A stretch of DNA of 23,956 nt from the IMG/VR virus record IMGVR_UViG_3300034375_011420, positions 1 to 23,956 of that record. One strand, 5' to 3'. The number at the start of each line of letters is the position of its first letter. Position 1 is the stretch's first letter. The stretch comes from a virus. Shown here in pieces: positions 2,523-16,897 of this stretch. Under the pieces are notes generated by a model. It ran no database searches. It saw only the letters and a program-made list of their open reading frames with translations, and was not told the origin of the DNA. The translations under genes were made by a program, and so were the position numbers.

Positions 2523-2948
2523 TTAGGAAGTATATGTCTTGTGGTTTACGATTCTCCAAGCGCTATTAGTAGATTTCACAGGAAACATCTCACATAGGTC
2601 TCCATACGTGTAATCACCAGTTGCATATAGTCTTCGCATCTCTTCTGCTTGTTCAAAGGTCATCTTGCGAATCCATGTTCTATTACCTCTTTCTGGTCTT
2701 TCCATGTTATACTGTTGTTTTAGCATGTCCTCATGGTTGAGCGCTTCTATCTTTGTATCATATACTGCGACTACTCTGAATTCTACATCTTCATCTTTGA
2801 AGATTGCAGGTCTCGATGGGTAATCGTATTTCGTGTGTTCCGCAAATCTGAGTTTCGGTCTCTTTGTTTGTCCTACGTAGACTACATCTCCCGTTGTAGC
2901 ATCTACTAATTCGTATACGTGATATTTCATATAGGTTATATGAGCCAT
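2523..2948 (-). CDS. Free-standing GIY-YIG homing-type endonuclease
   Basis: 141 residues. The N-terminal GIY-YIG nuclease core shows HVY (residues 10-12, GIY position), YVG (24-26, YIG position), Arg34, Glu73 in 'HEDMLKQQYN' and Asn81, so all catalytic positions of the family are present. After the nuclease (from about residue 95) comes a helix-turn-helix-like tail, 'FEQAEEMRRLYATGDYTYGD' and on to 'SAWRIVNHKTY', as in DNA-binding modules of phage homing enzymes. An internal ATG at residue 7 is an alternative start. The gene lies 16 bases after the large terminase and 35 bases before the next tail gene, a typical insertion site for a selfish endonuclease. Homing activity is inferred from family and context. 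Confidence 0.85.
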   Translation of the reverse strand: MAHITYMKYHVYELVDATTGDVVYVGQTKRPKLRFAEHTKYDYPSRPAIFKDEDVEFRVVAVYDTKIEALNHEDMLKQQYNMERPERGNRTWIRKMTFEQAEEMRRLYATGDYTYGDLCEMFPVKSTNSAWRIVNHKTYTS

Positions 2949-4875: not shown

Positions 4876-5096
4876 AATCTATTTAGTATTTTATAAATTG
4901 CTTCAGAAGTAATGCCAGTTATTGCGGCTACTAATATACCTTTCAAACCATAAAGGGCAAGAAACGGTCCTATTGAATACCAAAAACCAGAACAAAGATT
5001 ACATTTAAACGGTTTACTTGGTAACCACTCAAATTGTTCTAAAAAGTCTGCACCTAAATGTGCGAGTGCTGCAAATCCTAATATTTCTAGTATCAT
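4872..5096 (-). CDS. Small DUF1360-like membrane protein
   Basis: 74 residues with two hydrophobic segments: residues about 1-17 (MILEILGFAALAHLGADFL) and 41-66 (FWYSIGPFLALYGLKGILVAAITGI). Between them is 'WLPSKPFKCNLCSGFW', a Cys-x2-Cys loop before a short aromatic turn, the arrangement I associate with DUF1360-like small membrane proteins of phages and bacteria. It overlaps its neighbours by four bases on both sides, so it is co-translated with the sigma-like factor and the CxxC protein. Its role in infection is unknown. It could be a lysis or superinfection accessory, but nothing here shows that. Confidence 0.65.
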   Translation of the reverse strand: MILEILGFAALAHLGADFLEQFEWLPSKPFKCNLCSGFWYSIGPFLALYGLKGILVAAITGITSEAIYKILNRL

Positions 5097-5605
5097 AATC
5101 TTTTTTTCAGTTCTTCCTTTATATATTTTCTACATTCTGTTACGGCCTGGCTAATACTGGTTCTTGGTATACCTGTTGTTCTACTCAGTTCTGAATAGTT
5201 TGGATTCTCTACATACATTAAAAATAGAGTTGAACGATACCATGTGTCTATATTATCTGTTTGCATTTCTTCTATAATAGCAGTAGCAGCTGTATGCATA
5301 ATATCTTCTGACGTGTCATAGGGTACATCTTCTAGTGATTCAGTTGTTTTATCATATAGTTCATGCACACGGCCTTTTTGGCGATACAGGGTATGATATG
5401 GTGAAGTACTGGAATTGAATGACAGATACATCATTCCACTCATAAACTTCATAGCCTCATTCTTTTCTATTAACTCATCTCTTCTTGGGTGTTCAAGAAA
5501 CTTTGAAAGTACATAGTGTCCTACATCTTCCCATTCATGGCTACCTTTACAAACCCTTTTAGCCATTATCATGATCTTGTCATAGTTATCTCCTATCCAA
5601 TCCAA
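5093..5605 (-). CDS. Sigma-70-like phage transcription factor
   Basis: 170 residues. The N-terminal half resembles sigma region 2 in layout: helices with 'YDKIMIMAKRVCKGSHEWED' and 'VGHYVLSKFLEHPR' (the DLVQEVFLKL-like helix), then an aromatic basic segment. The C-terminal half, about residues 120-170, has a region-4-like helix-turn-helix: 'NPNYSELSRTTGIPRTSISQ' followed by a basic helix ending KEELKKRL. This is the domain order of small ECF-type sigma factors. Such a protein could redirect host RNA polymerase to late phage promoters. It overlaps the downstream membrane-protein gene by four bases. It could alternatively be a non-sigma DNA-binding regulator; the region 4 call is firmer than region 2. 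Confidence 0.7.
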   Translation of the reverse strand: MDWIGDNYDKIMIMAKRVCKGSHEWEDVGHYVLSKFLEHPRRDELIEKNEAMKFMSGMMYLSFNSSTSPYHTLYRQKGRVHELYDKTTESLEDVPYDTSEDIMHTAATAIIEEMQTDNIDTWYRSTLFLMYVENPNYSELSRTTGIPRTSISQAVTECRKYIKEELKKRL

Positions 5606-14659: not shown

Positions 14660-15184
14660 TTACGCTTCTACAATCGTAGATGTAACTTCGTATGAAGGTG
14701 CGGCTTCTAATCCGCTAATAGTGATTTCATATCCTTGACGATCTGCGTATGCAGTTCCACTAGTAACTGTTGCTGCTGAAACGTATGCTCCACGCTCAAG
14801 ACCTACTGAGAAATACTTTGGTGTTTCATCGTTAGTCTTGAATACTACAACCATATTAGTAGCTTCTGCCATTAGTAACAATTGGTTGCGTTTTGCAGCT
14901 TCCATTTTGTTGAATACTAATGTCAATGCTTGGTCATATGTTACTGTACCATTTTCTTGTGATACTGCTACAGTTTCAGTGTATGAACCAGTTTGACGTG
15001 GCATTTCGAAGATAAAGAAATCACTAGGAGTTAGGGCAGATCCGCCCACTGTAATAGCAGTTACAGTACCTGTAGATTCTGTGATGCCTTCAACGGGTCC
15101 GTTTGCGATAAAAACTTTATCAACGCCACCTTGTGCATCGTTACAATCTAGGGTAAATCCTGCTGAGATATTTGAACAACTCAT
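14660..15184 (-). CDS. Probable tail tube (major tail) protein
   Basis: 174 residues. The N-terminus 'SNISAGFTLDCNDAQGGVDK' followed by 'VFIANGPVEGITESTGTVTA' recalls abundant structural proteins in environmental phages located one gene after the capsid. The middle has 'FFIFEMPRQTGSYTETVAVS', 'TYDQALTLVFNKMEAAKRNQ' (the helix of tube monomers) and 'NMVVVFKTNDETPKYFSVGL', ending in strand-rich 'YEITISGLEAAPSYEVTST'. A beta-sandwich with one central helix fits a tail tube monomer. The leader TAAACTAAACAAA lies 11 bases upstream, as for scaffold and capsid, consistent with high expression. A head-decoration role is the alternative. Confidence 0.65.
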   Translation of the reverse strand: MSCSNISAGFTLDCNDAQGGVDKVFIANGPVEGITESTGTVTAITVGGSALTPSDFFIFEMPRQTGSYTETVAVSQENGTVTYDQALTLVFNKMEAAKRNQLLLMAEATNMVVVFKTNDETPKYFSVGLERGAYVSAATVTSGTAYADRQGYEITISGLEAAPSYEVTSTIVEA

Positions 15185-15195
15185 AGTTTCTTTTC

Positions 15196-15208
15196 TTTGT
15201 TTAGTTTA
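15196..15208 (-). promoter_or_regulatory. Leader motif TAAACTAAACAAA before the tube-like gene
   Basis: The 13 bases match the motif before the capsid gene exactly and end 11 bases before the ATG, as they do there. Confidence 0.75.
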
Positions 15209-15209
15209 T

Positions 15210-15235
15210 AAAGAGAGGACCGAAATCCTCTCTTT
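15210..15235 (-). terminator. Hairpin between capsid and tube-like genes
   Basis: AAAGAGAGGA (15210-15219), loop CCGAAA and TCCTCTCTTT (15226-15235) form a perfect 10-bp stem. On the minus strand it is followed by ATAAACTAAAC, a weak U tract. It may be a leaky terminator or an RNA-stabilising hairpin at the 3' end of capsid mRNA. Confidence 0.65.
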
Positions 15236-15248
15236 GGTTATAGTGTGA

Positions 15249-16136
15249 TTATGCTAATCCGTTAGTAGCAAATAGGTTTACTTGGTGTACTGCAACTCCA
15301 AGTCTCCATGCTGCTCTGAACTTCACTACGTCTTCTCCTTCATCGTAGAAGAATTTCATAGTTTCGAAGTCAGATTCTAGACCAGTTCCTGCAACGATAA
15401 ATCCAGCAGGACCAGCTGCAACGTAATCAGATCCTACAAGACCTGAAGATTTTACGATTTTACAGTTAGTTCCGATTAGATCTAGAGTTCTACCATCTCC
15501 TTGGTCGTAGCTATAGTAGTTCAATGCTACTAATGCTCTACGTAGAGTTTGGAAGTTAGCTGGAGAAACGATCATGATTAGATCTTCTCTGTCTTTTACA
15601 GACTCGTCGATTGCATCGAATAGATCTAATGCTTGATCTACTGCGTTAGAAACTGTCCAAGCTGCTGGAGCTGCTGGTACGTTAGCACCGTTAGCTGCAG
15701 TAATTTGAGCTTTGATACCGTTTACAGTACCGTCTCCGTTGATTAGGAAACCTTCGTTGTATTTACGTACTCTTTCTACGTAGTAACCTGAAATTATTTC
15801 CTCGAATGGTACTGAGTCGTTAGCAGTTCCTGCGCTCATTCTCTGAGATAACCAGTACTGGCGTAGGTCTTCTGGACAAAGTTCCATTTTTACTTGTTTG
15901 TCTGCGATTGAGATGTCAACTTGAGAGAAGTTTACATCACCGCTTGGTGACCAACCACATGATAGATCAGCAACGTTTAGGTCACCGTCCATTAGGTTGA
16001 TAGCTACAGTACCTGCTTGAAGACCAGAACGAACGTCAATGTCATTCATCAAGTCTGTAGTCAACACTGCCTTTGCGATCAAGTCTAATGAAAGCTCATC
16101 AGTGTATGCTGTTAGGGCTGTTAAATCAAATGCCAT
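15249..16136 (-). CDS. Major capsid protein (HK97 fold)
   Basis: 295 residues. The N-terminus has 'FDLTALTAYTDELSLDLIAK' and 'DLMNDIDVRSGLQAGTVAIN'; the middle has 'DKQVKMELCPEDLRQYWLSQ' and 'FEEIISGYYVERVRKYNEGF' (spine-helix-like), then 'GIKAQI', 'DLFDAIDESVKDREDLIMIV' and 'SPANFQTLRRALVALNYY' (A-domain-type order), and a C-terminal 'FRAAWRLGVAVHQVNLFA' strand. This is the organisation of HK97-fold capsid proteins of Bacteroidetes and marine phages, and length and neighbours (scaffold, protease, tube) agree. A prohead protease upstream suggests cleavage near its start, but no cleavage site is evident. The leader motif is 11 bases before the ATG. Confidence 0.88.
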   Translation of the reverse strand: MAFDLTALTAYTDELSLDLIAKAVLTTDLMNDIDVRSGLQAGTVAINLMDGDLNVADLSCGWSPSGDVNFSQVDISIADKQVKMELCPEDLRQYWLSQRMSAGTANDSVPFEEIISGYYVERVRKYNEGFLINGDGTVNGIKAQITAANGANVPAAPAAWTVSNAVDQALDLFDAIDESVKDREDLIMIVSPANFQTLRRALVALNYYSYDQGDGRTLDLIGTNCKIVKSSGLVGSDYVAAGPAGFIVAGTGLESDFETMKFFYDEGEDVVKFRAAWRLGVAVHQVNLFATNGLA

Positions 16137-16147
16137 AATAATTGATG

Positions 16148-16160
16148 TTTGTTTAGTTTA
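16148..16160 (-). promoter_or_regulatory. Leader motif TAAACTAAACAAA before the capsid gene
   Basis: Thirteen bases, ending 11 bases upstream of the major-capsid ATG. Identical to 15196-15208 and 12/13 identical to 16762-16774. Confidence 0.75.
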
Positions 16161-16162
16161 GT

Positions 16163-16750
16163 TTATTTGTTCTTTCTGATTGATACAAGCTTTTCAAAAC
16201 GCGCTTCTGCACGACCTTTGATTACCTTTGCTTCTTCAGAGAAGTTGTTTCTGATCTTTTTAGTAGCAGGCTGATCAGCGATTGCCTCAAAACGCTCAGT
16301 TAGAGTGTTTAGTTCTTCTTTTAGAGAGCTAATTTCTTCAGTATATGGTTTGATTAGACCTGCGATCTCTGTAATGAATTCATCAGCGTTGAATTGCATT
16401 TCAACTTCTTCTTTGATTTCTTCTTCAGCTTCGATATTCTCTTCAGCTTTTTCTTCGATCGAAGTAATTTCACCATTTTCACCTACTGTAATTAGCAAAC
16501 CTTCTGTAGTTTCATGTTTCCCCATTGGAGCAAATGGATCTTCAGATGCACCTTCACCAGCTCTAACAAATAGGATTGCTCCTGGTTGTAGTTCGCCTTC
16601 GGTGTATACTTCAGTTCCGTCAACTAGAGTAGCTTCAGCCATAGTAACTTCTACTTTCTCTTCTTTTTCCTCGTTTTGGATTTTCACTACTTCTTCAGTC
16701 TCAGCTCCAAGTAAAACTCGTAGCTTTGTAATTGCTTGTTGTACATCCAT
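16163..16750 (-). CDS. Scaffold-like protein
   Basis: 195 residues. The N-terminal half has 'TEEVVKIQNEEKEEKVEVTM' and a small beta-barrel-like part with 'ATLVDGTEVYTEGELQPGAI' and 'HETTEGLLITVGENGEITSI'. The middle is very acidic (Glu-rich, about residues 103-120). The C-terminal part is a coiled-coil helix ('TEEISSLKEELNTLTERFEA') with a basic end. Acidic, helical, located between maturation protease and capsid gene: the expected scaffold position. Scaffolds guide capsid assembly and are often removed by the protease. A minor head protein is the alternative. The leader motif is 11 bases before its ATG and a promoter candidate lies further upstream. Confidence 0.75.
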   Translation of the reverse strand: MDVQQAITKLRVLLGAETEEVVKIQNEEKEEKVEVTMAEATLVDGTEVYTEGELQPGAILFVRAGEGASEDPFAPMGKHETTEGLLITVGENGEITSIEEKAEENIEAEEEIKEEVEMQFNADEFITEIAGLIKPYTEEISSLKEELNTLTERFEAIADQPATKKIRNNFSEEAKVIKGRAEARFEKLVSIRKNK

Positions 16751-16761
16751 AATGAAATAGT

Positions 16762-16774
16762 TTTGTTTAGGTTA
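16762..16774 (-). promoter_or_regulatory. Leader motif before the scaffold gene (12/13 match)
   Basis: TAACCTAAACAAA, one base different from the capsid and tube leaders, again ending 11 bases before the ATG. Confidence 0.7.
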
Positions 16775-16780
16775 CGTAAC
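16771..16780. promoter_or_regulatory. Palindrome GTTACGTAAC, possible operator
   Basis: A perfect 10-base palindrome that would overlap the transcription start of the minus-strand promoter at 16786-16814. It also overlaps the leader motif by four bases. Confidence 0.4.
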
Positions 16781-16785
16781 ATATA

Positions 16786-16814
16786 GAAATATACGGGATT
16801 GAAAAATGGACAAA
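16786..16814 (-). promoter_or_regulatory. Bacteroidetes-type promoter for scaffold, capsid and tube genes
   Basis: On the minus strand TTTG (16811-16814) is followed after 17 bases by TATATTTC (16786-16793), a slightly short-spaced version of the Bacteroidetes TTTG/TAnnTTTG pattern. It lies in the only divergent gap, upstream of the scaffold gene. Confidence 0.55.
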
Positions 16815-16897
16815 AGTTGAATTTTTTTATGGTCTACATGAAACTTTTTCTTGGAGACCACTATAACTATCGTAAATAATTAAAAAACAACAACAAA

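Follow-up and report, generated by a model that had tools for sequence, protein, structure and literature searches.

An A-rich leader before three virion genes of an uncultured phage as a probable Shine-Dalgarno-independent translation-initiation signal

Introduction

Bacteroidota leave Shine-Dalgarno (SD) sequences unused, for reasons that have been described (PMC6847099, PMC9976891). How ribosomes that ignore the SD choose strong starts is an open question, for which phage capsid genes are natural expression extremes. Ribosome profiling and reporter mutants in F. johnsoniae revealed that A-3, A-6, A-12, and A-13 raise translation, and changing positions -14 to -11 of the EF-Tu leader to UCCC led to the loss of 90% of GFP (PMC6847099). 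In the same species, bS1 is suspected to make contact at -12 to -15 (PMC6847099). Twofold stimulation of an SD-less mRNA by bS1 has been described (PMC9976891). Two further described systems are relevant here: the Bacteroidota sigmaA promoter with its -33 TTTG and -7 TAnnTTTG elements (PMC6847099, PMC9723704), and the E. coli ompA and papA mRNAs, in which a 5'-terminal stem-loop is followed by an unstructured leader (review PMC3997798).

Here, we analysed an IMG/VR record of 23,956 bases (the window, i.e. the whole stretch of DNA) with almost every gene on the minus strand, in which a preliminary description had noted a 13-base motif upstream of the scaffold, major capsid (MCP), and tube-like genes. 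The leaders of these genes share with the SD-less A-rich/Kozak-like leader of the F. johnsoniae EF-Tu type (Baez et al. 2019, PMC6847099) the absence of an SD, A residues about 11-14 nt before the AUG, A-3, and low structure. The EF-Tu type signal is strongest in highly translated genes, and this presumably holds for the phage leaders likewise. In contrast to this type, the phage leader is longer (~30 nt) and almost G-free at the MCP gene, shows an A peak at -19 to -16 in addition to -14/-13, and in this lineage has its own 13-mer common to three genes. We interpret the motif as the core of a strong Bacteroidota-type SD-independent translation-initiation leader for the most abundant virion proteins, with a probability of roughly 0.78. 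In location and nature it corresponds to the SD-less A-rich start signal already proven in F. johnsoniae, but it is stronger and its peak lies about 4 nt further upstream.

Results and discussion

The phage family and its virion genes

The phage is uncultured and its host is probably flavobacterial. In the collection searched, no cultured phage encoding the same MCP was found. The sole cellular match was a Flavobacteriaceae MAG holding three 24-kb phage contigs binned as host; this MAG was rejected as host proof because its contigs C5, C7, and C8 are phage. These contigs of the public MAG FRAM18_bin221 (G001; L240-L245) represent three different 24-kb phage genomes of the family. Another record, G045 (L235, L236; 26,279 bp), has a perfect 2,242-bp terminal repeat and therefore corresponds to a phage genome of 24,037 bp.

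The features of the window are compiled in Table 1. The putative scaffold gene, for which family searches gave no hit, is named by its position alone, and "tube" is likewise a positional label, the matching PHROG being unnamed. For comparison, the MCP and tube proteins were used as queries to fetch 80 contigs each, and gene starts were placed by tblastn. The order protease - scaffold - MCP - tube - portal is retained in the relatives.

Table 1 Coordinates and assignments of features in the window.
Feature	Position	Strand	Remarks
Candidate promoter reader, ECF-sigma-like protein	5093..5605	-	170 aa
Tube-like virion gene	14660..15184	-	matches phrog_19091 only, a PHROG without named function
Tube-like gene leader	15185..15209	-	A-rich, nearly G-free
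13-mer TAAACTAAACAAA before tube-like gene	15196..15208	-	exact copy; -24 to -12 of ATG 15184
UUCG-type hairpin AAAGAGAGGATTTCGGTCCTCTCTTT	15210..15235	-	directly upstream of tube leader; z -2.5
Major capsid (MCP) gene	15249..16136	-	phrog_11320 (unnamed), E 3e-9; phrog_267 major head protein, E 8e-4, weak
MCP leader	16137..16165	-	G-free, from TAA stop of scaffold ORF
13-mer TAAACTAAACAAA before MCP gene	16148..16160	-	exact copy; -24 to -12 of ATG 16136
Putative scaffold gene	16163..16750	-	between protease and MCP
13-mer TAACCTAAACAAA before scaffold gene	16762..16774	-	one-mismatch copy; -24 to -12 of ATG 16750
Palindrome GTTACGTAAC at predicted mRNA 5' end	16771..16780	-	loop-less remnant of relatives' hairpin
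-7-like element TATATTTC	16786..16793	-	
-33-like element CTTTTGTC	16809..16816	-	15 nt from TATATTT box

Three genes of the window share a 13-mer leader

The three-gene repeat, two exact copies and the one-mismatch copy at the scaffold gene, proved to be real. The best same-offset triple among the leaders scored 37/39. Simulation of 200 sets of 26 leaders gave at most 33, and 37/39 was never reached in 20,000 sets simulated with the A-rich composition of the three leaders. When up to 3 mismatches to the 13-mer were allowed, matches were not enriched across the window (26 vs 23.6 expected), and an Rfam search with the motif gave no match. The copy at the MCP gene sits inside a triple repeat, TAAACTAAACTAAACAAA, which opens with the preceding gene's stop codon. 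As the preliminary description had stated, a classical SD is absent at all three starts. Its further claim of a constant 11-base gap between motif and ATG holds for the three genes of the window, but the spacing is not rigid, being 10 nt at the scaffold gene of the closest relative (L003/L083; MCP 100% identical). The preliminary description had not found the motif before other genes: within the window, the 13-mer is indeed confined to the three genes. However, leaders of a similar A-rich, G-poor kind are also found upstream of portal (14140-) and of a 48-aa ORF (16898+). All three genes display AAA at -14 to -12 and A-3, and A-6 is found at MCP alone.

Base composition and A positions outlast the letters of the motif

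The exact 13-mer is kept only in relatives that are at least 95% identical. Below ~80% MCP identity, other A/C/T strings such as AACTAAAAAAACAA stand in its place, and what is conserved in ~50 divergent relatives is A at -18 to -16, at about -14/-13, and at -3, together with avoidance of G along ~30 nt upstream of the MCP start and over-representation of the word AACTAA. Among 56 non-redundant MCP leaders, 86% contain no G from -32 to -4 (mean 0.18 G per 29 nt), and A-3 is present in 100%, A-17 in 98%, and A-18 to -16 in 89-98%. The pattern at the tube leaders is similar (A-16, 100%; A-18 to -16, 91-100%; A-3, 87%), and the scaffold leaders show A-17 to -13 in 79-91%, with A-13 in 89% and A-3 in 70%; across the relatives' leaders, A-13 is present in 76-89%. 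In contrast, the A pattern is far weaker at portal, protease, and other genes of the relatives, including the gene after tube. The last 30 nt before the start are predicted to be unfolded in 62/62 MCP leaders, 85% of tube leaders, and 83% of scaffold leaders. Relative to dinucleotide expectation, AACTA and ACTAA are over-represented in the leaders of MCP (AACTA, z 6.7) and scaffold (AACTA, z 4.4), whereas at tube any excess is weak. A position weight matrix gave mean scores of 13.6 for MCP and 10.3 for tube leaders, on which it had been trained, compared to -7.1 for portal, 0.3 for host EF-Tu, and -6.3 for host groEL leaders. The letters of the 13-mer are thus a lineage dialect of an unstructured A-rich leader: in relatives below ~80% MCP identity the exact letters are lost, but base composition and A positions are kept.

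Host leaders carry a related, weaker signal

Leaders of random genes from three Flavobacteriaceae genomes contain 3.6 G per 29 nt and are only mildly enriched in A, peaking at -11 to -13, and host EF-Tu leaders have A-12 to -14 in 75-85%. In the Flavobacteriaceae tuf genes, a conserved leader, TATAACTAAGATTAAA, lies upstream of EF-Tu (L159-L188). The phage leaders have their A peak (-19 to -16) some 4-5 nt further from the start codon than the hosts do (-11 to -14). Host groEL leaders frequently carry AAAAACTAAAAA ahead of the ATG and look similar to the phage leader. In random host leaders, enrichment of AACTAA was seen (29 occurrences vs 13.0 expected). An enrichment of 7-mers in a pooled set of host leaders was discarded because orthologous leaders had been counted too often, and the analysis was redone on random regions. 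We therefore regard the phage leader as a host-type signal in stronger form, shifted upstream.

In Cellulophaga phage phi14:2, an unrelated crAss-like flavophage, the leader of gp102 (L211:35036, minus strand), a structural protein confirmed by proteomics, ranks first among 47 gene leaders when scored with the matrix trained on the MCP and tube leaders. In phages 11b, P2559S, and B124-14, the MCP start as annotated did not rank high; at least for P2559S, the MP1 annotation may be from a wrong start.

An initiation leader fits better than a binding site or a duplicated segment

The A positions of the phage leaders coincide with those identified by mutagenesis in F. johnsoniae (PMC6847099), and the best fit is a translational enhancer, as had been proposed, that would serve virion proteins of high copy number in a probable Bacteroidetes host. 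We judge the 13-mer to be a translation-initiation enhancer rather than a site for a dedicated protein. Against this reading stand the upstream offset of the phage A peak relative to the host peak and the annotated MCP starts of 11b, P2559S, and B124-14, which did not rank high. In the mechanism that we envisage, the unstructured, G-free, A-rich stretch, with AAA near -18 to -16 and near -14 to -12 as well as A-3, would allow fast loading of the 30S subunit, probably assisted by bS1. The loaded 30S would find the sole nearby AUG, and capsid, tube, and scaffold proteins would be made at the high rates that they need. The AAAC repeat in the 13-mer sets AAA on both A peaks.

The preliminary description had also considered an RNA-protein binding site. 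If a dedicated phage or virion protein bound the 13-mer on the mRNA to coordinate the three genes, by repression or activation, the three equally offset copies in a single genome would be accounted for, and leaders of the same genome are indeed more alike than leaders across genomes (longest common substring, p<0.001, all three gene pairs). However, in a same-offset test across genomes, the MCP-tube pair alone was significant, the gap becomes 10 in the nearest relative, AACTAA(A) occurs in host leaders as well, and a site that is read letter by letter is not supported, given the exchange of the 13-mer for other A/C/T strings while composition and A positions stay. A binding protein is therefore improbable and is retained as a rival because the coherence within genomes leaves room for genome-specific tuning or duplication. 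That same likeness within genomes would also be expected if a single leader had recently been duplicated, or if the leaders were recombination linkers joining gene modules, their identity being without a function of its own, and the short tandem repeat TAAACTAAACTAAAC that constitutes the MCP copy fits such an origin. In contrast, in dozens of divergent relatives the three leaders retain their base composition and A peaks, which the portal and protease leaders do not, and selection therefore acts on the three, whatever their origin. As an explanation without function, duplication is thus even more doubtful than a binding protein.

A predicted phage-specific promoter precedes the scaffold gene

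Upstream of the scaffold leader, a promoter-like pair, CTTTTGTC-N15-TATATTT[A/C], was found with an exact 15-nt gap in 51 of 52 non-redundant relatives. The pattern is single in the window and occurs once per contig in those relatives whose records matched exactly, the two matches in G045 being the two ends of its terminal repeat. CTTTTGTC contains the TTTG and TATATTT the TAnnTTT of the Bacteroidota sigmaA promoter, and the spacing is similar. However, the closing G of the -7 element, nearly invariant in hosts, never occurs in the phage promoter (A 61%, C 39%), whose -33 element is 8 nt long and near-invariant and whose spacing is exactly 15 nt. In hosts, the phage pattern appears only within phage contigs or as chance matches: among 149 Flavobacteriaceae genomes, and outside the three phage contigs, four matches in three genomes corresponded to the control level and had surroundings like gene interior, and a host sigma class was rejected as its source. 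A scan for E. coli-type promoters remained at chance level. We predict that CTTTTGTC-N15-TATATTT[A/C] is a phage-specific promoter, which would be the larger find of this analysis.

The closeness of this promoter to the scaffold copy might suggest that the motif itself is transcriptional, as part of a promoter or start site at each gene. This is very improbable: the scaffold promoter is a different sequence (16816-16786) that lies upstream of the motif, its pattern has a single match in the window, no such promoter precedes the MCP and tube copies, and the motif, which falls inside the predicted 5' UTR, is devoid of TTTG/TAnnTTTG elements. Least credible of all is that the TAA-rich leader mainly serves as a multi-frame stop insulator, ending translation of the upstream gene before reinitiation: downstream of the scaffold gene, TAAACTAAACTAAAC places TAA in each of the three frames, and MCP leaders have stops in 2.26 frames (1.73 expected), but AATAA is depleted and ACTAA enriched, the scaffold leader has no stop excess (1.84 vs 1.74 expected), and A-3 and the A peaks are left unexplained.

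The protein encoded at 5093-5605, which is divergent and has an apparent TTG start, is a candidate reader of the scaffold promoter, the link between the two being their co-occurrence. It is present in 11 other contigs of 13 examined, some of which are fragments. Its PHROG match is phrog_1740 (sigma factor, E 4e-5), and the relatives' versions also match phrog_1025 (sigma) and phrog_79 (Q-like), whereas a Pfam search of the protein gave no sigma hit. Its AlphaFold model (pLDDT 85, pTM 0.46) retrieved mainly ECF sigma factors in a Foldseek search against the PDB, with weak scores (best probability 0.93, E 0.04, TM ~0.3).

A covarying hairpin at the predicted 5' end of the scaffold mRNA

In 48 of 51 relatives, a hairpin is found at the predicted mRNA 5' end, in most cases starting 4-7 nt after TATATTT, and F. 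johnsoniae transcription start sites fall at the distance after the -7 box at which the hairpin begins. The hairpin covaries, with 33 distinct 5-bp stems and all four Watson-Crick pair types at each of the five positions. The mean stem score was 14.9 compared to 6.0 in shuffles, in a stem-anchored count that leans towards structure and has the shuffles as its control. This count was used because loop lengths vary, so that MAFFT/RNAalifold yielded no consensus structure for the scaffold 5' region. In the window and its closest relatives, only the palindrome GTTACGTAAC is found at the hairpin site. The relatives' scaffold mRNA would thus have the same layout as ompA and papA mRNA, a 5' hairpin and an open leader, which protects ompA-type mRNAs (review PMC3997798), and by analogy the hairpin may protect the scaffold mRNA. 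Differences are that the phage leader is SD-less and A-rich and that the hairpin, known by covariation, is eroded in the window. The 5' region of the scaffold gene would accordingly be a composite of phage-specific promoter, mRNA-5'-terminal hairpin (eroded in the window lineage), and leader.

Taken as a whole, we tentatively propose, at somewhat less than even odds, a ~24-kb flavobacterial phage family with its own late-gene cassette, in which a phage-encoded ECF-like sigma factor would recognise a private promoter present once per genome, the mRNA would begin with a hairpin conserved in structure and not in sequence, and G-free AACTAAA leaders, tuned ~4 nt further upstream than those of the host, would favour virion genes on SD-blind Bacteroidota ribosomes. 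Dozens of divergent leaders agree in G exclusion, A positions, and AACTAA, and can serve directly as a test set and as candidates for strong leaders in flavobacterial reporters. Likewise, the near-invariant promoter and the conserved sigma-like gene form a testable phage promoter-sigma pair in a family with no cultured relative in the collection searched.

Additional features of the window

The UUCG-type hairpin AAAGAGAGGATTTCGGTCCTCTCTTT upstream of the tube leader is a possible terminator, attenuator, or 5'-protecting hairpin. Hairpins are found upstream of the tube leader in many relatives; a hairpin with a UUCG loop between the MCP and tube genes occurs in L087, L125, L065, L143, and others, often followed by a T run, and is missing in some relatives. 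Elsewhere in the window, a protein with a GIY-YIG nuclease domain (2523-2948, minus strand) is encoded adjacent to the terminase large subunit gene.
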